A stretch of 35,812 bases of DNA, taken from Gammaproteobacteria bacterium. GTDB lineage: Bacteria; Pseudomonadota; Gammaproteobacteria; SG8-11. Below are positions 7,079 to 18,090 of this stretch, piece by piece. The stretch's first letter is position 1; each line of letters opens with the position of its first letter. The position numbers and the translations under genes are program-made. Location of the stretch: assembly GCA_024641505.1 (NCBI GenBank), contig JAHECY010000036.1, forward strand, positions 1 to 35,812. Reading direction: 5' to 3'. Below the pieces are notes generated by a model. That model worked only from the letters and a program-made list of their open reading frames with translations, was not told the DNA's origin and made no database searches.

Positions 7079-9361
7079 ATGATGTTTCATATCGCTTCAA
7101 GGATGCGATACCGGAAGGAAAAAAATCGAGAATCCGGTTCGTATCGCCCATCTGATGCCTTGACATTCTTTCCGGGCATGGCGGATACCTTTTCCTGGCT
7201 AAAAGAAGGGTGCTGCCATGCGCGCATCGTTCCTGTTCTGTCATCACGTGTCCTTGCGATCGGCGCATGTCTGCTGCTGTTGACGTCCACGCCCGCTGAG
7301 GCGGTGCAATTCTGCAACACCAACGGTGGCGCGGGTTGGGCGATCCCGGACAATGACCCGACACCGACCACCGCGACGGTGACCGTCGCCATGGGCACCG
7401 CCGTCGGCCCCATACAAGACGTCAATATCACCACCAACATTACCCACACCTACGTGGGCGATCTGTACGCCGCGGCCCGCAGTCCAAGTGCCGCGAGCGC
7501 CGTGCTATTCGACCGCCCGGGCGTGCCCGCTGCCACTTTCGGGTGTAATGGCGCCAATTTGCAGGTGCTGTTCGATGATGAGGCGGGCACTGCTACCACC
7601 ATCGAGAATCTCTGTGGCGGCGGCAATCCCAGCATCAGCGGCACTTATTTGCCCAACACCACCCTGACTGCCATGGACGGCGGCACCGTCAACGGCATCT
7701 GGAACATCGACGTCACCGACAATGCCGCCGCCGATACCGGCACCATCGACAATGTGTGCGTGGATGTTCAGGCGGCGGCGATTACTCTGATTCGTTACGT
7801 CAGTACCTTCGCCAATTGCTCCGATCAGCTCGCCAGTCTCACGGTACCCAGCGGCACCAACGTTTATTACTGCTATACCGTTACCAACTCCGGCAGCTAT
7901 GCCTTTACTATCGACTCGGGTGGAACCGCGGACGACTTGGGGGCGGATATCTCCGGTCTTGAAGGCAGCTACGCGGTGGGCGCCAGTGTCACGGTAACCT
8001 CAGGGCCCTATGTGGCCGGAGGCAGCGCATTGCCGGTGGGCACCACCGGTTACACGGCACAAGTCACCGCATCCGGTGTCGCAACAGGCTTGCCACTCAC
8101 ACCGACAGCGGCGGCTTCCGTTACGGTACTCGCCGCGCCCGTCGCCGCGGCAGGTAACAAACCCCTTTATCTCACTGGCAGTACCGGCCTGTCACGCACT
8201 AAACCTACCACCACCACCCAGACCACAATCAACGGTGCCAATGCTTTACAGAAGTGGACCCTGCAACCCACATTGGCAAAGAAACTGGACTTTACCAACG
8301 CCTCGATTCCCGTGGTGCTACGGCTGTCGCGAAACAACGGTGGTACAACCCGCAACTTTACCTTGCAGCTTGCCACCGCCGGCGGCACTCCCGCCGGTCC
8401 CATCGGTACCCTCAGTGTTACCAATTACACTCTTACCACCACCGCGACAGAGTACGCATTTTCCATTCCTGTGAATGCAGGATTCAATTCACTGTCCCTG
8501 GCGAGCGATATCACCCTCACGTTGACCAACACTACCGGCGCCGCTAACAGGCGTATCCTGGTAGACGACACTAACACGACGACGTCCTACTCCCAACTGT
8601 CCTTGGACGCCACCACGGTCATCAATGTCGGCAGCGTGGCCACCTATAGCGCCGCCTACAACGGTGGTGCGGCCATCAGCAGCATCGCCCCGGGCGCGAC
8701 CATTTATATTCGCGGCACCATCAGCGATCCCTTCGGCGACTATGACGTTACCAGTGCGCAATTCGATATTCGGGACAATCTCGGCGTACTGCAAAGTACC
8801 GTGGTGCAAACCGTACCAGTGACGGAATTGCCATCGAACGATCCGGCACTGGCAATTTTTGAATACGCCTACCCGGTTCCAGTCACCGGTCTCGGTAACT
8901 GGACGGTATCAGTGACTGGGTTCGAAGGTTCGGAAGGCACGGTATCCCACAGTTGGTCCACGTCGTTTGTCGTCGGCATCCCGAACGTCACGGTGCTCAA
9001 ATCCGCCGCCACGCCACGCACCGTCAACACCCTCGTCAACTCCGGCGAGAACATCACCTACACGCTGTTGATTTCCAATAGCGGCACCGGCTATGCCTCC
9101 AGCGTCACCATCAGTGAAGCCATCAGTGTGTTCCTGAAATTCTGCACCAATTGCCAGGCCGGTCAGGCCTTCAGCTTTACCGACGGCAGCCCTGTCAGCG
9201 GCCTGTCCCTGGGCACACCCACTTACACGGATCGACTGGCGGCGCCCTATATCCCCGCCGCGGGCTACGACGCCAACGTCGGCGGCGTAGCGCTGCCCAT
9301 GACCGGATTCATGGCCCCCGGCACCAGTTTCACGCTCATTTATCAGGCTCAAACCCAATGA
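7079..9361 (+). CDS. Secreted P-domain / DUF11 repeat surface protein
   Basis: An exported protein, 760 aa from this start. The ATG at 7079 has AAAGG 9 bases upstream but gives a 75-residue signal region. A start at 7178 gives a normal-size one but has no good RBS. The hydrophobic core VLAIGACLLLLTST and PAEA cleavage site precede VQFCNTN. Residues about 78-190 form a proprotein-convertase P-domain (IPD..., ITHTYVGDLYA, LFDRPG, NGIWNIDVTD, GTIDNVCVDV) with paired cysteines. A DUF11-like domain follows (about 245-345), then two beta-rich parts. A second DUF11-type domain (about 640-760; SGENITYTLLISNSGTGYASSV) closes the protein. No PEP-CTERM, LPXTG or barrel is seen. First gene of the surface cluster; the next gene starts 33 bases later. 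Confidence 0.8.
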   Translation: MMFHIASRMRYRKEKNRESGSYRPSDALTFFPGMADTFSWLKEGCCHARIVPVLSSRVLAIGACLLLLTSTPAEAVQFCNTNGGAGWAIPDNDPTPTTATVTVAMGTAVGPIQDVNITTNITHTYVGDLYAAARSPSAASAVLFDRPGVPAATFGCNGANLQVLFDDEAGTATTIENLCGGGNPSISGTYLPNTTLTAMDGGTVNGIWNIDVTDNAAADTGTIDNVCVDVQAAAITLIRYVSTFANCSDQLASLTVPSGTNVYYCYTVTNSGSYAFTIDSGGTADDLGADISGLEGSYAVGASVTVTSGPYVAGGSALPVGTTGYTAQVTASGVATGLPLTPTAAASVTVLAAPVAAAGNKPLYLTGSTGLSRTKPTTTTQTTINGANALQKWTLQPTLAKKLDFTNASIPVVLRLSRNNGGTTRNFTLQLATAGGTPAGPIGTLSVTNYTLTTTATEYAFSIPVNAGFNSLSLASDITLTLTNTTGAANRRILVDDTNTTTSYSQLSLDATTVINVGSVATYSAAYNGGAAISSIAPGATIYIRGTISDPFGDYDVTSAQFDIRDNLGVLQSTVVQTVPVTELPSNDPALAIFEYAYPVPVTGLGNWTVSVTGFEGSEGTVSHSWSTSFVVGIPNVTVLKSAATPRTVNTLVNSGENITYTLLISNSGTGYASSVTISEAISVFLKFCTNCQAGQAFSFTDGSPVSGLSLGTPTYTDRLAAPYIPAAGYDANVGGVALPMTGFMAPGTSFTLIYQAQTQ

Positions 9362-9394
9362 CCATCCACAACCATCAACCATGGAGAAAGCACC

Positions 9395-9880
9395 ATGCAC
9401 GTTAAACACATCGCTCTCACGATCCTGCTCATCGCGGTATCCTCCACCGCCTTCGGGCAACCCAAGATCGAAGTGACCGCCGTGGCGGAAAAAGAAATCA
9501 AGGTGCAGGAGGCGGACCACACCATAACCAAACGGGTACCGGCGACCGACATCGAATCCGGTCAGGAGCTGATCTATACCTTGCACTATCGGAATGTAGG
9601 CACGGATAAGGCGACCAATGTGAAGCTGGATAACCCGGTACCACAGCATACCGCCTATGTTTCCAACAGCGCCTTTGGCGAAGACGCCGAAGTCCTGGTG
9701 TCCCTGGACGGCAAGCATTTCAGTAAACCCGGACAACTCACTTATACCTTGAAAACCAAAGACGGCAACACCGAACAGCAGGTGGCGAGCCCGGAGCAAT
9801 TCAGCCATTTGCGCTGGGCGCTCAACGAAGTGCCGCCCGGCGCCGCCGGTGCAGTCGGATTTCGGGTAAGGGTTAAATAA
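9395..9880 (+). CDS. Small secreted DUF11-like protein
   Basis: A 161-aa protein with a clear signal peptide (MHVKHIALTILLIAVSSTAFG, cleaved before QPKIEV). It has a single DUF11-type Ig-like domain: ESGQELIYTLHYRNVGTDKATNVKLDNPVPQHTAYV followed by FGEDAEVLVSLDGKHF and an end strand GAVGFRVRVK. GGAG lies 8 bases before the ATG. It probably acts in the periplasm or at the cell surface as a subunit or adaptor to the larger DUF11 proteins on both sides. The same architecture (signal peptide plus lone DUF11) is widespread in proteobacterial surface loci, with no known biochemical role. No cysteines or anchor are seen. Confidence 0.82.
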   Translation: MHVKHIALTILLIAVSSTAFGQPKIEVTAVAEKEIKVQEADHTITKRVPATDIESGQELIYTLHYRNVGTDKATNVKLDNPVPQHTAYVSNSAFGEDAEVLVSLDGKHFSKPGQLTYTLKTKDGNTEQQVASPEQFSHLRWALNEVPPGAAGAVGFRVRVK

Positions 9881-9916
9881 CGGCGCATACGAATTCAAAC
9901 ATCGAGGATATGGATC

Positions 9917-10051
9917 ATGTACCAACATACCACTGCACTGCAAAAAGCCATGCTGTACATCTTCACTCTGCCCCGCGCGGGTCCGGATCCCCCCGGGAAG
10001 CGGGATTGGGCACACCGCAGACGCGGCAATCTGGCGCCCAATCCACCCTGA
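9917..10051 (+). CDS. Possible 44-aa ORF in the gap, doubtful
   Basis: An ATG at 9917 has GAGGA 8 bases upstream and opens a 44-codon frame (MYQHTTALQKAMLYIFTLPR...). It ends in a Pro/Arg-rich tail with no recognisable family. The same DNA forms a hairpin (10003-10044), so the sequence may be constrained as RNA instead. Listed because of the RBS; could be a leader peptide or chance. Confidence 0.25.
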   Translation: MYQHTTALQKAMLYIFTLPRAGPDPPGKRDWAHRRRGNLAPNPP

Positions 10052-10056
10052 TTTTC
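10003..10056 (+). terminator. Hairpin, possible attenuator within the surface cluster
   Basis: Perfect 9-bp arms GGATTGGGC (10003-10011) and GCCCAATCC (10036-10044) enclose a 24-base loop; TTTT follows at 10052-10055. It lies in the 228-bp gap between the two DUF11 genes and could lower readthrough. Confidence 0.4.
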
Positions 10057-10108
10057 AGTAACAAATATTTAGAGCAACGTACTTCAACAATTAACAAGGA
10101 ACAATATC

Positions 10109-11371
10109 ATGAACGCAAAAATCAACCATGGTCCACCGTGGACCAACACGCTGACCGGGACGGCATTGATACTCGCCTTGACTACCAGCCTGGCATTAGC
10201 ACCGCAGCTGGCCTGGTCCGCACTCACCGCCGGTACCACGATCAGCAATACCGCTACCGTCAGTTACAGTGATGCCGTCGGCACAGGGCAAGCACCCGCC
10301 AGCAGCAACACCGTGGACGTTACCGTTGCCCTGGTGGGAGCCGTAAGCTGGAGTGCCGCACCCGCTGGTCAAACCCAGCCTTCCGGCGCGTCAATTTCAC
10401 CCGACTATAGCATCAGTGTCATCAATGGCGGCAATGGCGTCGACACCTTCACGCTCACGCATAACGTAGCGGAAAGCGGTACGCTGACGGCAGGCACCTG
10501 GACGCTCGCCGCTTCGGTCACGCTGTACGGCGCCATTGCCGACGGGGTCACCGTCTCCTATAACATACCGTTCGATCAAACCACGATTTCGGTACCTTAT
10601 CACGACACAGCCCAACTCACCGCCGGCGTCACGGTCGTGCGTATCAACGGCGTGGACTACACCGTGGTAAACAGTACCGCTACTACCGTGGTGGTCAGTG
10701 GCAATGCTAGCGCAGGCGTTGGCGCCGGCACCCAAATCGGCGAGGTCGCTTCCGTCACTTTAGGCGGTACCGTGGGAACGCTCGCTGCGGGAACCAGCGA
10801 AACCCATACCCACTCCATCGGCGCAACGGGAACGACCCAGGGTGGCAATACGGCCGCGACGGCGACGTCCGGCAACTGGACCACCACCGTCACCCGGGTG
10901 GCGCTGTCGGTTGCAAAATACGTGCGTAATGTGACCGACGCCAATGACAATCCGTTGGCAGGTACCGGTACCACCATCAACGGCGCTGAGTATTTCGCTG
11001 CCGGGGTGACCGGCAATTCCGATCCCGATGGGGCCGGTGCTTTGGTCGGTGACACGCTGGAGTACGTGATCGTCATCACCAACAGCGGCGGCGGCAATGC
11101 CACGGATGTGATCTTCACCGATACGGTCTCAGCGTTCACCACCTACGTGGCCAGTTCCGGTAAAGTGGATAGCAACGGCGATGGCACCTACGACATCGCC
11201 GTCGGCGTCGGCGGTGAAACCGATGGTGTGGACGCACTTGGAATCTTCGCGATCGCGGGCGCTACCATCACCGTGCATGCGGGCACCGGCGGCAACGAAA
11301 CCACGCCGGTGGGTGGTACCATAATCCCGGCGGCCACGTCGGTAATTCTGTACCGGGCCACGATCAACTGA
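10109..11371 (+). CDS. Secreted DUF11-domain surface protein
   Basis: A 420-aa exported protein. The signal peptide (LTGTALILALTTSLALAPQLAWSA) is about residues 16-38. The mature protein starts with AGTTISNTATVSYSD, a motif echoed in the giant downstream protein (GASILNTANVS). The body is Thr/Val/Gly-rich beta-sandwich sequence with no cysteine in the mature part. A DUF11 domain lies at about 280-350 (DTLEYVIVITNSGGGNATDVIFTDTVSAFTTYV), then an Asp-rich SNGDGTYD segment that may bind calcium. AAGGA is 8 bases before the ATG. The TGA overlaps an ATG at 11371 by one base. Probably a major surface or matrix subunit; function inferred from composition and context only. Confidence 0.8.
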   Translation: MNAKINHGPPWTNTLTGTALILALTTSLALAPQLAWSALTAGTTISNTATVSYSDAVGTGQAPASSNTVDVTVALVGAVSWSAAPAGQTQPSGASISPDYSISVINGGNGVDTFTLTHNVAESGTLTAGTWTLAASVTLYGAIADGVTVSYNIPFDQTTISVPYHDTAQLTAGVTVVRINGVDYTVVNSTATTVVVSGNASAGVGAGTQIGEVASVTLGGTVGTLAAGTSETHTHSIGATGTTQGGNTAATATSGNWTTTVTRVALSVAKYVRNVTDANDNPLAGTGTTINGAEYFAAGVTGNSDPDGAGALVGDTLEYVIVITNSGGGNATDVIFTDTVSAFTTYVASSGKVDSNGDGTYDIAVGVGGETDGVDALGIFAIAGATITVHAGTGGNETTPVGGTIIPAATSVILYRATIN

Positions 11372-11407
11372 TGATCGACCTGCGGCGACAGGCGTCAGGA
11401 CCCGATC

Positions 11408-11456
11408 CGCATGCCGGCAGCAACGCCGGCGTGCGGGCCGGGACCGGCCCGTTATC
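11408..11456 (+). terminator. Two overlapping GC-rich hairpins before the giant gene
   Basis: Stem 1: 11408-11418 with 11425-11435 (11 bp, one G-T pair, 6-base loop). Stem 2: CGGGCCGG (11434-11441) with CCGGCCCG (11444-11451), followed by TTATCTTTATT. The two share 11434-11435, so they may compete. Terminator- or attenuator-like. Confidence 0.5.
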
Positions 11457-11501
11457 TTTATTCACTCACGCGATGACGCCGGTGTTCGGACCGGCGTCCA
11501 T

Positions 11502-11539
11502 CGTCCCAAGCTCTTTTTCCATGAAAAGAGCTTGGGACG
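11502..11539 (+). promoter_or_regulatory. Perfect 16-bp hairpin with the start codon in its loop
   Basis: CGTCCCAAGCTCTTTT (11502-11517) and its exact reverse complement (11524-11539) enclose the 6-base loop TCCATG. That ATG (11521-11523) is the best start of the giant gene. No Shine-Dalgarno is visible near it. The structure itself is certain; a role in translation control or mRNA processing is inferred. Confidence 0.7.
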
Positions 11540-14500
11540 TTGTGCTGCGTATTGGCGGCATAGTGTCGTTACTGGCCGGCATGGCCGCCGTGGCCAATGC
11601 CGCCGTGCCACCCCACGGCGCCAGCATCCTCAATACCGCCAATGTCAGCACCTCCCTGGGCAATCTCAGCAGCAGCGTCAGCGTCAGAGCCCTGGGTCGC
11701 ACATCGGCATCGATGCAGGTGCTGAGTTATGCGGCGGGATCCGGCACCGCCGTCAACACCTTTATTGGCGGCAGCGAATGCCGAGCGCCGGCCGGGTCTG
11801 CGCAGCCTTACACAGCGCTGGCGGCGCCGGTCACTTTGTCCGGAACCACATTGACGATTCCAGGCAATCTGGCGCTGTCCACTTCAACCAGCTTCAAACT
11901 TGGCAACCCTTTGTTCGTCGAAGTCAACGACAGCGATCAGAACATTGACCCCACGATCGCCGAACAACTGGTAGTAACCGTCAGCTCTGAAAACAGCGAC
12001 AGCGAAGAACTGCGCCTGACTGAAACCGGTAGCGACACCGGTCTGTTTACCGGTTATATGCAAACCGCCAAAGGCGCCGCACTACCCAATGATTGCAGGA
12101 TAACAGCGCAGAGTAACCAGACCCTGACCATCAGCTATACCGATACCTGGGACGGCACTGATGTCGCCGTATCCAGCGTGCTGGTCGACCCCTACGGCGT
12201 TATTTTCGACAGCGCCAGCGGCAGTGCCGTCGACGGCGTCACCGTAACGCTGGTTGATGCCGCCACCGGTCAGCCGGCAACGGTTTACGGAGACGACGGC
12301 ATCAGCCTGTTTCCCGCCACCGTGGTTACCGGCGGCACGGTCAACGACCAAAGTGGTGCCGGCTATGTGTTTCCCGCGGGTAACTACCGCTTTCCCCTGG
12401 TGGCACCGGGCGACTATCGCTTGCTGATCACGCCCGTTACGGGTTACGTATTTCCTTCCACCGTGGATGATGCCACGCTGCAGACCTTGCCCGGCGCCCC
12501 CTACGTATTAAGCGTCGCTTCCCGCGGTGCGGACTTTACCGTACCCATGGGTCCGCCGGTGCAGGTGGACGTACCGCTGGACCCGGCAGCGGCGGTGTTA
12601 TTCCTGACGAAAAACGCCGGCAAGCAGCAGGTTGAAGTGGGTGAATTCGTTCCTTATACCCTGGAACTGACCAATACCGGCGCCGGCATAGCCGCAGCTA
12701 TTCAGATCAACGACCGCTTACCCGCCGGTTTTCGGTTGCAGCCGAACGCCACGCGCAGGGATGGTCTGCCGGCCGCGGACCCCGCCATCAGCAGTGATGG
12801 CCGTGCGCTCAGGTTCACGGTCCCGGATCTCCCGCCCGGCACTACGACACGCGTCAACTATGTCGCCATAACCACCGTAACCGCCCCCCAGGGCAAGGCG
12901 GTCAACAGCGCTCAGGCCATGACCGCGGACGGCATTGGCTCCAACACCGCCCGCGCCTCGGTCAAGGTACAGCTGGATCCTTTCAGCAGCCGCGGCCGCG
13001 TTTTGGGCCGGGTGATGACGGGCAATTGCACGGCAACCACGCCGGAAGGCGCCGTGCGCCTGAGCCTGCGCAGCCACGTTGCCGGCGATCAGGTATTGTA
13101 TACCGTACACATGCAGGGCAACGTGATACCGGTGCAGGATGTGCAACTGGTACTCAATTTACCCCAGGCCATTGGTTTAATCGACAACAGCGTGCGCATC
13201 AATGAACAGACCGTAGCAGATCCGGAAAGCCGGACGGACGGACTCTATTTACCACTGGGAAACCGCGCCGGGGATTGGTCCGATGTGATCAATTTTGCGG
13301 TGAAAGTCGCCCCCAGCACCCGCGGCGAACTGAGCCTGCTCTCCAATGGCTTGTTCAAAGTGTTGGCGCGAGCGGAATTCACTGCTGTCGGCTCCGGACA
13401 TATGCGCACGCCGGTGGCGGAAAACTCCTTCCGCAGCCTGCCCAATCTGGTGTGGCCCAAGTTCGCCGCGCTGACCGCCGAGTTGCGGGCAACGGACCGG
13501 CAGATCCTCGATGACCTTGCCAAATACTACGCGGGTCAACAAGTGAAAAGCGTACATATCGTTGGTCATACCGACAGCAAACCCATTGCGCGCGGTCAAC
13601 ACCAACGCTTCAAGGATAACTATGAACTGGCCGCCGCTCGCGCCCAAGCGGTCGCCGACTACCTGAGTAAACTGTTCAAGCTGCAGCCCCGGCAAATCAC
13701 CGTGGAGGGTGCGGGACCGGACAAGCCCATCGCCGACAATGAAACCGTCGAAGGCCGTCAATTGAACCGGCGCGTGGAAATTGCCATTGAAACCGATACC
13801 GACCAATCCCGTGACAGCTTCCGTGTGCTCGCCGATGACAGCGGGGAAAAGTCCATCAAAATACTGGGCGAGTCCGTACAAAACGGTGATGCCGGCATCG
13901 GCATGGATGCACCAGGCGTCGCCGGTATCAAATTACTGATGGAAGACGGCCGCTACGCCGTTACCGATGAACGTGGCATGTACCATTTCGAGGGCTTGCT
14001 GCCCGGCAGCCATGTTCTGCAGATCGATGGCGCATCGGTACCGGAGACCTGGGAAGTATTCGCCTGTGAAAAAAATAGCCGCTTTGCCGGTGACCCCAAT
14101 TCCCGCTTTGTCGATCTGCAAGGCGGCAGCTTGTGGCGTGCCGACTTCTACGTGCGGCCAAAACAAAGCAGCAATGGTGCCGTGGGCCTGCGCATGACCA
14201 GCGACCTGGAGAACGGCCTGGTGCGTTACCGTTTCCAGGTGCGGGGCAATACCCTGAACTACGATAATCTGCGTTTGCAAATCGACTTGCCCGCCGGCTT
14301 CATTTATCAGGCACACAGCGCCCTGCGCGATGGCGCGTCGATCGAAGATCCGGTGATTACCGGGGAAACACTGGTGCTGAACCTCGGTAATCGTCCTGCG
14401 TCCGCTTGGCAGGAAGAGATTTCCATCACCACCGCTGCCGCAGACGACCACACCGGCGAAGTCTATACCCGCGCCCGACTCATGTTTGACACGCCTTCGC

Positions 14501-17500
14501 AGCAGCATCAGGAGACGCCCGAAGTGGACAATGCCCTGGCCATGGAATCCGCCAGCAACCGACGCTTCGAATTTCAGGGGGAATTCCGCCCCGGCAGCAG
14601 CGAACTGACTGCCGCCGACAAGGCGAAGCTCGACGCCATCGTAGCAAATCTGCTGGATATGCCGGTCAAACATATATTGATCAACGCCCTTGGCGGTTTT
14701 CGTTCCTCGGTAAAATCTTCGCAAGACTATGCAGCTCTGGGCATGGACAGAATACGGGCCGTGGCCGCGCATCTGTCGTCGAAACTCGCGTTGTTTGACA
14801 ACCAGGTCAAATTTACCGAAGACCTGTCATCCCCGGACTCCGGCTCGGCGAAACGTCTGGAAATCATCGTCACCGTGGCCGGCGCCGAAACCAGCCAGAG
14901 TTTACGCATTACCCGGGGTGACAGCGGCTTCTGGGAACGCCAGGTGATCGCGCAGGCGCGCGATCTGGTACCGGGTAACAAGCCCGAACCGGCGGTCGAG
15001 GCGGATACCCGCCAGGGATTCTTGAATCTGCGCAGCGGCACGGTAATCGTCAATGAATTCGTCAATTTGCGCCTGCGCCTGGATGCGCGCCTGCAAGCCA
15101 AGCTGTTGGTGGACGGCGTAGAGGTGCCCAAGGAATACCTGGCGTTGAGCCATCACGATCGCGCCACCGAATTGACCACCTACGCCTACTTAGGCGTGAA
15201 ACTGGGCGCGCCCGGCCAACATACCCTCAGCTTCAAAGGCATGGGGCCGTTTGGTAACGCCCGTTTCGAGGAAAACCTGAGCATCACGCGGGCCGGGGGA
15301 ATCACGCGTATGCGCGTCGCCTCCACCGCCGGCAATATCGCCGATGGCAAACAACCGATCCACGCGCAAATCGAACTGCTCGACCAGCAAGGCACGGTGA
15401 TTCCCGCGGCGGCGGACCTGATCTTCGAGGGCGGCACCCTGGAGCCGTTACGGGAGGGTACGGATCGCTGGTCGGAATTGTCGGCGGACAAGAACCTGAT
15501 CCCGCTGGCCGCGGACGGCACCGTGCGTTTCGCGCCGGTCACCAATAGCGGGGTCTACACCGCGCGTCTGCGCTATCAGGATCTCACCCTGTCCCTGGAA
15601 ATACCCGTGCAACCCTTCTACCGGGATTGGGTCATGGTCGGTCTGGCGGAAGGTACCGCCGGTTACAGCGTCGCCCATGGCAATATGCAGGAACTCGAGC
15701 AGGTTGACGGCAGCGACGGTTTCTACCATGACGGGCGGCTTGCGTTCTACGCCAAAGGCCAGATTCAGGGCAAGTGGCTGCTCACCCTGGCCTATGATTC
15801 CGGCAAAGACCAGGACGCGGTGGATGACGGCCTGTACCAGCTGATCGATCCCGACAAGTACTATACCCTGTACGGCGACAGCAGTGTTGGCGGCAGCGAT
15901 GCCACATCACGAGAACGCCTGTATGTGCGTCTGGAAGCCGAACAATATTACGCGCTGTTCGGCGACTACGATACCGGCCTCACGGTCACGGAGCTGTCCC
16001 GGTACAGCCGCAGTTTTACCGGTCTGAAGTCCGAATTTCATGACCAGCGCGTCTCGGTCACGGCTTTTGCCGCGCAAACCGACCAGGGGTTTATCCGTGA
16101 CGAGATCCCCGGCGACGGCACTTCGGGCTTATACCGGCTCAGTCACCGCGCCATCGTGCTGAACAGCGATAAAATCACGATCGAGGTGCGGGACCGTTTT
16201 CACAACGAAACCATCGTCAGTTCCCGCAAACTGTCACGCTATCTGGATTATCAAATCGATGCCGATGCCGGCACCCTCTACTTCAAGGAACCGGTATTTT
16301 CCCGGGATGAGTATCTGAATCCAATCTATATCATCGCGGAATACGAAGTGGCGGCCGATGGCGGCAACGACCTTAGCGGCGGCGTGCGCGCGGCGATGAA
16401 GATTCTGGAAAACAAGGTGGAAATCGGCGCCACCACGATTCATGAAGGCACCACGGGCGCCACCGGCGATTTGCTGGGGACCGATATCAGCTATCACCCG
16501 GATGACGACACCGACCTGCGCGCCGAATGGGCGACCACCGACAGCCTCCGCAATGGCACCCAAGCTACCGGGGAAGCCTATCTCGCGGAAGTGAAACGCA
16601 GCACCGCCCGTTATCAGGCCAAGGTCTATGCGCGCCGACAGGAAGGAGGCTTTGGCCTCGGACAACAGCAGGCGAGTGAATACGGTATGCAGAAATTCGG
16701 TATCGATGCCGGCTACACCCTGACGCCGCACACCCGGTTGACGGGCGAATCCTGGCGCGAAGAAAACCTGGTGACCGAGCAGCAACGTGACGTGTTCAAT
16801 TTCAACAGCATCCACAGTCTCGATCCCTATACCATCAGCGGCGGTTTCCGGCTGGCGCGCGATACCGATGCCAGCGGCAGGGAAGCGGCGTCCGACCTGC
16901 TCACCGGTGGAGTGGGTCGTACCTTGTTCGCGGAGCGTCTGAAATTGCGCGCCAACGGTGAACTTGCCGTCGATGACAATGACAACGCGGATTATCCCAG
17001 CCGTCTGACCTTGGGCGGCGATTATCGCCTGACCCCGGCCGCCAGTATCTTCCTGGAACAGGAATTCACCGATGGCGCCGACCAGGACACCAACACCACC
17101 CGCATTGGCCTGAAGGCCACGCCTTGGGAGGATGCCAGCGTCAATACCAGTATGCAGAACCAGACCACGGAAAACGGCCCGCGCACCTTCGCCAGCGTCG
17201 GCCTCACCCAGAAAGTGAAATTGTCCGAGCATCTATTAGTGGATTTCGGCATTGATCGCAGCCAGACCACGCGCCATGCCGACGATCAAACCTTTAACAG
17301 CAATAGTGCGCCGGTGTCGGGTCCCATCACCGACGACTTTACCGCCGCCTCCCTGGGCACTACCTACAAGCAGGAAGCCTGGTCCGCAACGGGCCGCCTG
17401 GAGGGGCGCAACGGCAAGCAGGAAGACAAGACCGGTGTCATCCTGGGTCTGTACCGCCAGCACAATACCGGCCTGGGCATTGCCGCCACACTAAAATATT

Positions 17501-18090
17501 TTAGCAGCGAGCGCACGGGCGCAGTACGCAATACCAACGCCGCCAGCCGTTTCGCCCTGGCTTATCGGCCCATCGCCAGCCAGTGGATCGTGCTCGAGCA
17601 ACTGGATCTGAGACATGACAGCAGCGCCAGCGCCGGTGCCTCCCAGGAAACGAAAAAAGCCGTCAACAATGTCAATGCCAACTACCTGTTCGACCGGCGC
17701 AATCAGATATCAGTGCACTATGGCATTAAATATACGCTGGAAACTCTGGATGCGCGTGCCTATGACAGCGTCACTCATATGCTGGGTTCCGAATACCGTT
17801 TTGATATTACTCCGCAATGGGACGTGGGTGTGCGTGCGGCGAGCCTGCTCCTGACCACCACCCACAGCATCCGTAACTCCCTGGGTGTAGCCACCGGCCA
17901 TGCGGTCAGCCGCAATGTGTGGCTCAGCGCCGGTTACAACTTCCAGGGTTTCGACGACAAGGATTTCCGTAATGCCGGTTACACTGCCGCTGGCCCCTTC
18001 CTGAAATTCAGGATGTCCCTGGACCATCTGACCGCACGCAATGTGCTCGCCTGGTGGGAAAAACGCCCGGCCGAAGAGCAGGCCCCTTAA
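11521..18090 (+). CDS. Giant outer-membrane DUF11/OmpA/barrel protein
   Basis: 2189 aa from the chosen ATG; the frame is open to an ATG at 11371. The signal peptide MKRAWDVVLRIGG...AVANA fits the 11521 start. Domains in order: GASILNTANVS module; a DSDQNIDP...LTETGSDTGLFTGY module (about 120-185); a prealbumin-like module (about 220-320); DUF11 (about 358-455); OmpA-like peptidoglycan-binding domain (about 660-760; IVGHTDSKPI...AQAVADYL...GRQLNRRVEI); SdrD-B-like module (about 793-880); a second, degenerate OmpA-like domain (about 1013-1123); linker Ig-like domains; then from about 1365 a long amphipathic beta region (YTLYGDSSVGG, LFGDYDTGLTV, SRYLDYQIDADAGTLYFKEP) ending in strand-rich sequence, probably an outer-membrane barrel. 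The final residues EEQAP are not a classic barrel end. Likely an anchor or export platform for the upstream DUF11 proteins. Confidence 0.82.
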   Translation: MKRAWDVVLRIGGIVSLLAGMAAVANAAVPPHGASILNTANVSTSLGNLSSSVSVRALGRTSASMQVLSYAAGSGTAVNTFIGGSECRAPAGSAQPYTALAAPVTLSGTTLTIPGNLALSTSTSFKLGNPLFVEVNDSDQNIDPTIAEQLVVTVSSENSDSEELRLTETGSDTGLFTGYMQTAKGAALPNDCRITAQSNQTLTISYTDTWDGTDVAVSSVLVDPYGVIFDSASGSAVDGVTVTLVDAATGQPATVYGDDGISLFPATVVTGGTVNDQSGAGYVFPAGNYRFPLVAPGDYRLLITPVTGYVFPSTVDDATLQTLPGAPYVLSVASRGADFTVPMGPPVQVDVPLDPAAAVLFLTKNAGKQQVEVGEFVPYTLELTNTGAGIAAAIQINDRLPAGFRLQPNATRRDGLPAADPAISSDGRALRFTVPDLPPGTTTRVNYVAITTVTAPQGKAVNSAQAMTADGIGSNTARASVKVQLDPFSSRGRVLGRVMTGNCTATTPEGAVRLSLRSHVAGDQVLYTVHMQGNVIPVQDVQLVLNLPQAIGLIDNSVRINEQTVADPESRTDGLYLPLGNRAGDWSDVINFAVKVAPSTRGELSLLSNGLFKVLARAEFTAVGSGHMRTPVAENSFRSLPNLVWPKFAALTAELRATDRQILDDLAKYYAGQQVKSVHIVGHTDSKPIARGQHQRFKDNYELAAARAQAVADYLSKLFKLQPRQITVEGAGPDKPIADNETVEGRQLNRRVEIAIETDTDQSRDSFRVLADDSGEKSIKILGESVQNGDAGIGMDAPGVAGIKLLMEDGRYAVTDERGMYHFEGLLPGSHVLQIDGASVPETWEVFACEKNSRFAGDPNSRFVDLQGGSLWRADFYVRPKQSSNGAVGLRMTSDLENGLVRYRFQVRGNTLNYDNLRLQIDLPAGFIYQAHSALRDGASIEDPVITGETLVLNLGNRPASAWQEEISITTAAADDHTGEVYTRARLMFDTPSQQHQETPEVDNALAMESASNRRFEFQGEFRPGSSELTAADKAKLDAIVANLLDMPVKHILINALGGFRSSVKSSQDYAALGMDRIRAVAAHLSSKLALFDNQVKFTEDLSSPDSGSAKRLEIIVTVAGAETSQSLRITRGDSGFWERQVIAQARDLVPGNKPEPAVEADTRQGFLNLRSGTVIVNEFVNLRLRLDARLQAKLLVDGVEVPKEYLALSHHDRATELTTYAYLGVKLGAPGQHTLSFKGMGPFGNARFEENLSITRAGGITRMRVASTAGNIADGKQPIHAQIELLDQQGTVIPAAADLIFEGGTLEPLREGTDRWSELSADKNLIPLAADGTVRFAPVTNSGVYTARLRYQDLTLSLEIPVQPFYRDWVMVGLAEGTAGYSVAHGNMQELEQVDGSDGFYHDGRLAFYAKGQIQGKWLLTLAYDSGKDQDAVDDGLYQLIDPDKYYTLYGDSSVGGSDATSRERLYVRLEAEQYYALFGDYDTGLTVTELSRYSRSFTGLKSEFHDQRVSVTAFAAQTDQGFIRDEIPGDGTSGLYRLSHRAIVLNSDKITIEVRDRFHNETIVSSRKLSRYLDYQIDADAGTLYFKEPVFSRDEYLNPIYIIAEYEVAADGGNDLSGGVRAAMKILENKVEIGATTIHEGTTGATGDLLGTDISYHPDDDTDLRAEWATTDSLRNGTQATGEAYLAEVKRSTARYQAKVYARRQEGGFGLGQQQASEYGMQKFGIDAGYTLTPHTRLTGESWREENLVTEQQRDVFNFNSIHSLDPYTISGGFRLARDTDASGREAASDLLTGGVGRTLFAERLKLRANGELAVDDNDNADYPSRLTLGGDYRLTPAASIFLEQEFTDGADQDTNTTRIGLKATPWEDASVNTSMQNQTTENGPRTFASVGLTQKVKLSEHLLVDFGIDRSQTTRHADDQTFNSNSAPVSGPITDDFTAASLGTTYKQEAWSATGRLEGRNGKQEDKTGVILGLYRQHNTGLGIAATLKYFSSERTGAVRNTNAASRFALAYRPIASQWIVLEQLDLRHDSSASAGASQETKKAVNNVNANYLFDRRNQISVHYGIKYTLETLDARAYDSVTHMLGSEYRFDITPQWDVGVRAASLLLTTTHSIRNSLGVATGHAVSRNVWLSAGYNFQGFDDKDFRNAGYTAAGPFLKFRMSLDHLTARNVLAWWEKRPAEEQAP

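Follow-up and report, generated by a model that had tools for sequence, protein, structure and literature searches.

The DUF11 domain was recently solved and renamed CLIPPER; it carries a Lys-Asn isopeptide bond together with an Asp residue, and in 9IFR the three residues are Lys715, Asp748 and Asn806 (PMC12617251). The bond described is intramolecular and lies within one complete domain, an isopeptide survey found it to be missing from some DUF11 domains, and phage capsids provide a known case of intermolecular isopeptide bonds that form autocatalytically (PMC12617251). Tag/catcher pairs such as SpyTag/SpyCatcher have been engineered by splitting pilin or CnaB domains (PMC5487036). The type IX secretion system (T9SS) includes SprA, a 36-strand barrel (PMC10994853). 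The locus described here lies in a window of 35,812 nucleotides of gammaproteobacterial DNA. Its domains belong to the same family as the CLIPPER domains of surface fibres, which are also found in Gram-negative bacteria, and have the same Lys-Asp-Asn triad; however, the domain appears here to be shared out over two proteins, one contributing its tail and the following one its head. As with SpyTag/SpyCatcher, this would be a split isopeptide domain with pieces that react between chains, but the pair here would be natural and CnaA-like, with a two-strand N-terminal hairpin as the smaller piece, and it was seen across approximately 60 cassettes examined.

The locus also has features in common with three established kinds of surface assembly. 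It resembles chaperone-usher pili in its incomplete Ig-like subunits, which a neighbour would complete, and in having a candidate tip and linker, a predicted outer-membrane barrel and a possible chaperone. It differs from them in that a hairpin at the N-terminus of the next protein would supply what is missing, in that the candidate chaperone is an acceptor and not a strand donor, and in the possible covalent bond. The Usher family (PF00577) has no match in the bacterium's own genome, for which an E. coli control was positive, and none in the giant protein of the locus. The predicted very large outer-membrane barrel and the diverse proteins that end in one type of Ig-like domain recall the T9SS, but we detected no sequence similarity to SprA, the barrel is fused to OmpA and DUF11 domains, and the organism is not one of the Bacteroidota. 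The SprA_N profile matched nothing in the genome, although its control matched nowhere either, and SprA appeared only as a low-TM fold match. Likewise, the sortase pili of Gram-positive bacteria are covalent, isopeptide-linked chains of Ig-like subunits, whereas the bond here would be autocatalytic; the sortase family has no match in the bacterium's own genome, with positive controls in three Gram-positive bacteria. None of these known kinds (usher, T9SS, sortase pilus) fits the whole cassette, and we regard it as categorically new, with each of its domains being of a known type. The preliminary description of this DNA knew of no named system with this gene set, and our search of open-licence literature agrees, having returned no description of the gene set or of DUF11 domains with donor strands; an unseen description is possible.

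The locus consists of four co-directional exported genes on the + strand. ORF1 (L, positions 7079 to 9361) encodes a protein of 760 residues, a candidate tip, with a P_proprotein domain above the Pfam cut-off at residues 113-225 and an incomplete C-terminal DUF11 domain (8981 to 9358, residues ~635-760), an acceptor that contains Lys641 and Glu680 and stops at strand E ('TSFTLIYQAQTQ'). ORF2 (S, 9395 to 9880) encodes an exported protein of 161 residues with one incomplete DUF11 domain, a candidate cap or chaperone. ORF3 (M, 10109 to 11371) encodes a linker subunit of 420 residues. Its N-terminal donor hairpin (10226 to 10327, residues 40-73; 'LTAGTTISNTATVSY..SNTVDVTV') contains Asn47, and its C-terminal acceptor (10898 to 11368, residues 264-420) is an incomplete DUF11 domain with Lys270 and Asp338 that ends at strand E ('SVILYRATIN'). 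ORF3 overlaps by 1 base with the gene for the giant protein G (11371 to 18090, 2239 residues), which has a donor hairpin of its own (11611 to 11694, residues 81-108; 'PPHGASILNTANVS..SSSVSVRAL') with Asn88, followed by a complete internal DUF11 domain (12604 to 12930, residues 412-520) with Lys414, Asp448 and Asn512. The DUF11 matches of ORF2, ORF3 and G are above the Pfam cut-off and that of ORF1 is below it. The preliminary description had placed four exported proteins ahead of the giant, three of them with DUF11-type domains, and had given them small or no cysteine content. The genes are real, exported and co-directional; the number of upstream genes is three, and the cysteine statement applies to ORF2 and ORF3 only, with ORF1 containing 11 Cys residues. 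The additional gene was a 120-residue ORF at 9910-10272, which we rejected; it overlaps ORF3 and was not observed as a gene in the relatives.

The true start of G is likely to be Met51 (nucleotide 11521), immediately ahead of the signal peptide. Strong hairpins are present at 11371-11545, after ORF3 and ahead of the signal peptide of G, and one of 12 bp (CCAAGCTCTTTTTCCATGAAAAGAGCTTGG) takes in this likely start ATG. A perfect hairpin of at least 8 bp occurs in 29 of 68 G leaders (one of them, being a run of N, should be discounted), compared with 4 when shuffled. An Rfam scan of the window gave nothing above threshold, and its weak matches are attributable to chance.

Gene order is conserved in relatives of this cassette. 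Where 2.5 kb or more of DNA is available upstream of G (68 loci), S is found upstream in 61, an adjacent M in 61 and both in 57, from Gammaproteobacteria, Desulfobacterota and Nitrospirota, and the median gap between M and G is 21 bp. S is present in 23 of the 24 genomes that contain G among 369 genomes, where 1.9 would be expected (Fisher P 5e-30); 6 further genomes of the 369 have S without a matching G, and 3 of these have a weaker barrel match. Loss of gene order had been named beforehand as the outcome that would count against a partnership; we observed that S, M and G stay together across classes and phyla. A full-length relative of G occurs in the same genus and others occur in many families of the class, and the orthologues that we retrieved are 35-58% identical over the barrel. 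In named genomes, the best 80 of at least 572 relatives, a sample biased to close relatives, fall in the Gammaproteobacteria, in Geobacter/Geomonas and other Desulfobacterota, and in the Nitrospirota. Many cassettes contain a second M-like gene (M1). The body of L varies by cassette and can consist of a P-domain, an H-type lectin, fibronectin type III (fn3), DUF7933/SpaA_3 or up to seven DUF11 domains; L orthologues with the P-domain were found at loci L069, L070, L078 and L088.

Alignment reveals where the terminal domains of these proteins are cut. In L, M, M1 and S alike, the tail breaks off after DUF11 strand E ('..sVtFRVtI', then the stop), without the last hairpin, and mature M and G open directly after the signal peptide with 'GTxIsNtAtVsY..SNTvtVtV', which corresponds to the missing hairpin. 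An N-terminal module common to ORF3 and G (GTTISNTATVS and GASILNTANVS) had been noticed before, and it proves to be real and conserved in relatives. In profile alignments, the tails of M, M1 and S match complete DUF11 with ~98% probability and end at position 90-91 of 119, and the tail of L, aligned with the giants' own DUF11, ends at position 104 of 135. The donor head motif, located ~12-15 residues past the signal-peptide core, was found in 56/60 M, 36/46 M1 and 55/67 G proteins and is rare elsewhere (1/61 S, 6/22 L, 9/310 control ORFs and 192/2551 shuffled sequences). One G, that of HTCC5015 (L078/L163), is without the donor.

We also joined tails and heads and aligned the products with a general DUF11 profile built from tandem repeats, with the heads cut in register with the motif. 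A single DUF11 alignment spanned the join in 68% of cases for the tail of M and the head of the G encoded in its own cassette and in 77% for the tail of M and M's own head, compared with 22% for shuffled heads and 5% and 18% for random pieces. With the giants' own internal DUF11 as the reference, the same test was much weaker (10/62 real versus 9/310 shuffled). Isolated heads match DUF11 weakly in profile-profile comparison (5% probability, perhaps expected for ~30 residues); the split-domain argument is carried by the join test. A sub-profile of the hairpin only separated heads poorly from shuffled sequence, and single DUF11 domains, searched by sequence against the PDB, returned no match. 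Long M-like proteins at loci L071, L090, L091 and L097 have the N-terminal hairpin, a complete internal DUF11 domain (for example, profile positions 3-117, E 2e-19) and a truncated C-terminal DUF11 domain ending at 89-90 in one chain. The AlphaFold model of ORF3 (mean pLDDT 85.8) has Ig-like domains resembling streptococcal surface adhesins and pilins. The sequence evidence suggests that the tail and head pieces belong together and that complementary halves of the domain sit on different chains, as a natural tag/catcher system requires.

The residues of the isopeptide triad, assigned by position and spacing against 9IFR, are distributed in a manner that follows this division. In the tail of M, Lys270 is found in 64/65, Asp338 in 64/65 and Y319 in 65/65 sequences, and Asn47 of the head in 60/65. 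The tail of M1 has both Lys and Asp in 46/46, and L tails have each of the two in 93% (n = 27), ORF1 having Glu680 at the Asp position. Asn is present in at least 53 of 68 G heads (Asn88 here), several of the remainder having been misread by the search pattern; it is replaced or unreadable in some M1 and G, and some heads have Ser, Thr or Ala at this position. S has no conserved Lys on strand A, and its Asp position is occupied by Asn in 21/30, so that by its sequence it looks like an isopeptide-dead acceptor. In complete tandem DUF11 domains, Lys, Asp and Asn are all present, as they are in the internal domain of G. The triad of the terminal domains is dispersed, the tail having Lys and Asp and the Asn lying in the head of another chain or in the far head of the same chain. 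This residue pattern makes covalent linking between chains likely, and the near-invariance of Lys and Asp in the tails of M, M1 and L together with their loss in S is as selection for the bond predicts.

Beyond its DUF11 domains, G has an OmpA-like domain (13462 to 13770, residues 698-800; Pfam E 2.2e-21) in which 'GHTD' and 'NRRVEI', with the Asp and Arg binding residues, are visible, pointing to putative peptidoglycan binding. A second OmpA domain, which had also been claimed for G, corresponds to a weak stretch at 14581 to 14814 (residues 1071-1148) that is present in 3/62 giants, and we rejected it as a conserved feature. The SdrD_B and carboxypeptidase-regulatory-like modules reported earlier do have matches (13903 to 14040, residues 845-890), below the curated cut-offs. 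An AlphaFold model of G 1200-2239, made with 67 sequences (pLDDT 79.7), has two Ig-like domains (15010 to 15615) and then a predicted barrel (15631 to 18021) with ~32 consecutive long strands at residues 1651-2217 and at most 8 more before them. The fold matches of this region are mainly outer-membrane barrels (SlpA, SprA, TonB-dependent receptors, LptD and the ushers PapC/FimD), all with low TM scores; against any solved barrel, the query-normalized TM score is ~0.2. No Pfam family covers the region above cut-off, and a PDB sequence search gave no barrel match. The C-terminus of G is thus predicted to be a very large outer-membrane barrel of ~32 or more strands, and the structure model backs the barrel that the preliminary description had proposed. 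Failure to predict such a barrel was the other outcome named beforehand as counting against that description.

We modestly favour a model in which the cassette produces a tether or fibre at the cell surface, held together by CLIPPER (DUF11) domains that are split between consecutive proteins and anchored by G. The tails of L and M, as DUF11 domains that lack the last beta-hairpin and carry the isopeptide Lys and Asp, would accept the absent hairpin with its Asn from the heads of M and G, with each next protein's head completing the preceding tail. Given that M has both a head and a tail, whereas L has just a tail and G just a head, the order would be L, M, G, with M repeated in the chain where M1 exists. 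Since L is usually without a donor and G is without a C-terminal acceptor, neither is able to complete itself, and therefore any completion at L and G must be between chains. A Lys-Asn isopeptide bond would probably form between the chains, as it does in engineered tag/catcher pairs. S would be an unreactive acceptor, holding donor hairpins reversibly until they are used, as a cap or chaperone. G would anchor the chain through its very large barrel and its OmpA domain and may also be the export pore. Because the head of G is N-terminal to an OmpA domain of periplasmic type, joining is probably periplasmic, with the chain then passing out, possibly through G; that the model has to assume these steps counts against it. 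The earlier view of the giant as an outer-membrane anchor or assembly platform, with the upstream proteins as partners or fibre subunits, pointed in the right direction and is partly supported, secretion by G being no more than possible. The split DUF11 domains, the Lys, Asp and Asn residues spread over chains and the variable P-domain tip were absent from that reading, and they make the partnership specific and testable. More tentatively, and with some doubt, we suggest a fuller version in which this is an enzyme-free covalent surface fibre of Gram-negative bacteria, formed by head-to-tail reaction of split CLIPPER domains, with S chaperoning the reactive heads and a barrel of 32 to 40 strands serving as both base and exporter.

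All of the evidence for split anatomy also fits a chain that is assembled without covalent bonds, by beta-strand complementation, with Lys, Asp and Asn being structural or reactive only in complete DUF11 domains. The Ser, Thr or Ala at the Asn position of some heads and the absence of the bond from some DUF11 domains (PMC12617251) are consistent with such a chain, but the almost invariant Lys and Asp of the M, M1 and L tails, lost in S, argue against it, and we consider it unlikely. A different possibility is that the head of M completes M's own tail, so that the hairpins serve to stabilize individual proteins and something else accounts for the partnership of the genes. M does have both halves and by itself might close in this way, and the AlphaFold monomer is confident for the M head (pLDDT 92-97) and tail; however, self-closure is impossible for L and S, which have tails without heads, and for G, which has a head without a C-terminal tail, and the long M proteins place the joined domain between two units. 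We think self-closure quite improbable.

The C-terminal DUF11-like domain could alternatively be an export signal that is read by G, as in the T9SS, with G being a secretion pore and the other proteins its cargo. One type of C-terminal domain on unrelated L bodies, a very large barrel and the presence of SprA among the fold matches would fit such a sorting signal, but it leaves the matching head hairpins of M and G and the join result unexplained, and no sequence match to SprA was found. As a replacement for the split-domain chain we hold this to be very unlikely, although the two can be true together. Least probable of all, and in our opinion barely credible, is that these are ordinary DUF11 fibrillar adhesins beside an OmpA-type barrel protein, with truncations that are boundary effects of a variable family. 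DUF11 is indeed a common stalk domain, and most parts of the cassette are generic surface-protein modules; yet the truncation point, the head motif, the residue distribution and the gene order are conserved across phyla.

If the split-domain chain is correct, it predicts a bond between Lys270 and Asn that joins named proteins, and bacteria would have evolved their own tag/catcher chemistry, covalently joining surface proteins without sortases. It would also establish, for Gammaproteobacteria, Desulfobacterota (Geobacter and relatives) and Nitrospirota, a route of surface assembly whose parts domain annotation lists as separate DUF11 and OmpA proteins. A family of very large barrels without a solved relative would gain a function, and many natural reactive pairs would become available.

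A c-di-GMP-I-type riboswitch core lies upstream of seven cassettes of the Geomonas/Desulfuromonas group (L124, L123, L126, L132, L135, L139 and L171). That of L124 (1366-1454) was confirmed by Rfam as c-di-GMP-I-GGC and the other six were found by pattern match; none was found in the window. This suggests that the cassette is under cyclic-dinucleotide control in Geomonas/Desulfuromonadales relatives, and a riboswitch at this place fits a role in biofilm formation or adhesion. DUF11 proteins have been tied to cell aggregation in methanogens (PMC10787695).

In one gammaproteobacterial group (L108, L109, L111, L122 and L129), the cassette adjoins mutL, miaA, hflX, hflK and hflC-like genes in a stable chromosomal place, the gene names having been assigned by eye from the sequences. 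The same genome as the window contains two distant and longer relatives of G, at G000:C165 (L068) and G000:C187 (L067), with open frames of more than 3000 residues; the former contains numerous complete DUF11 domains, and it has a match with an internal stop near its end. At L074 and L075, the G genes are split into at least two frames by frameshifts or assembly errors. A distant relative of the barrel (G115:C2:461371-463974) is located inside an open frame that runs to 11,777 residues, and distant G relatives are also carried by the plasmids NZ_CP028348.1 (Novosphingobium) and CP085288.1 (Acinetobacter haemolyticus).
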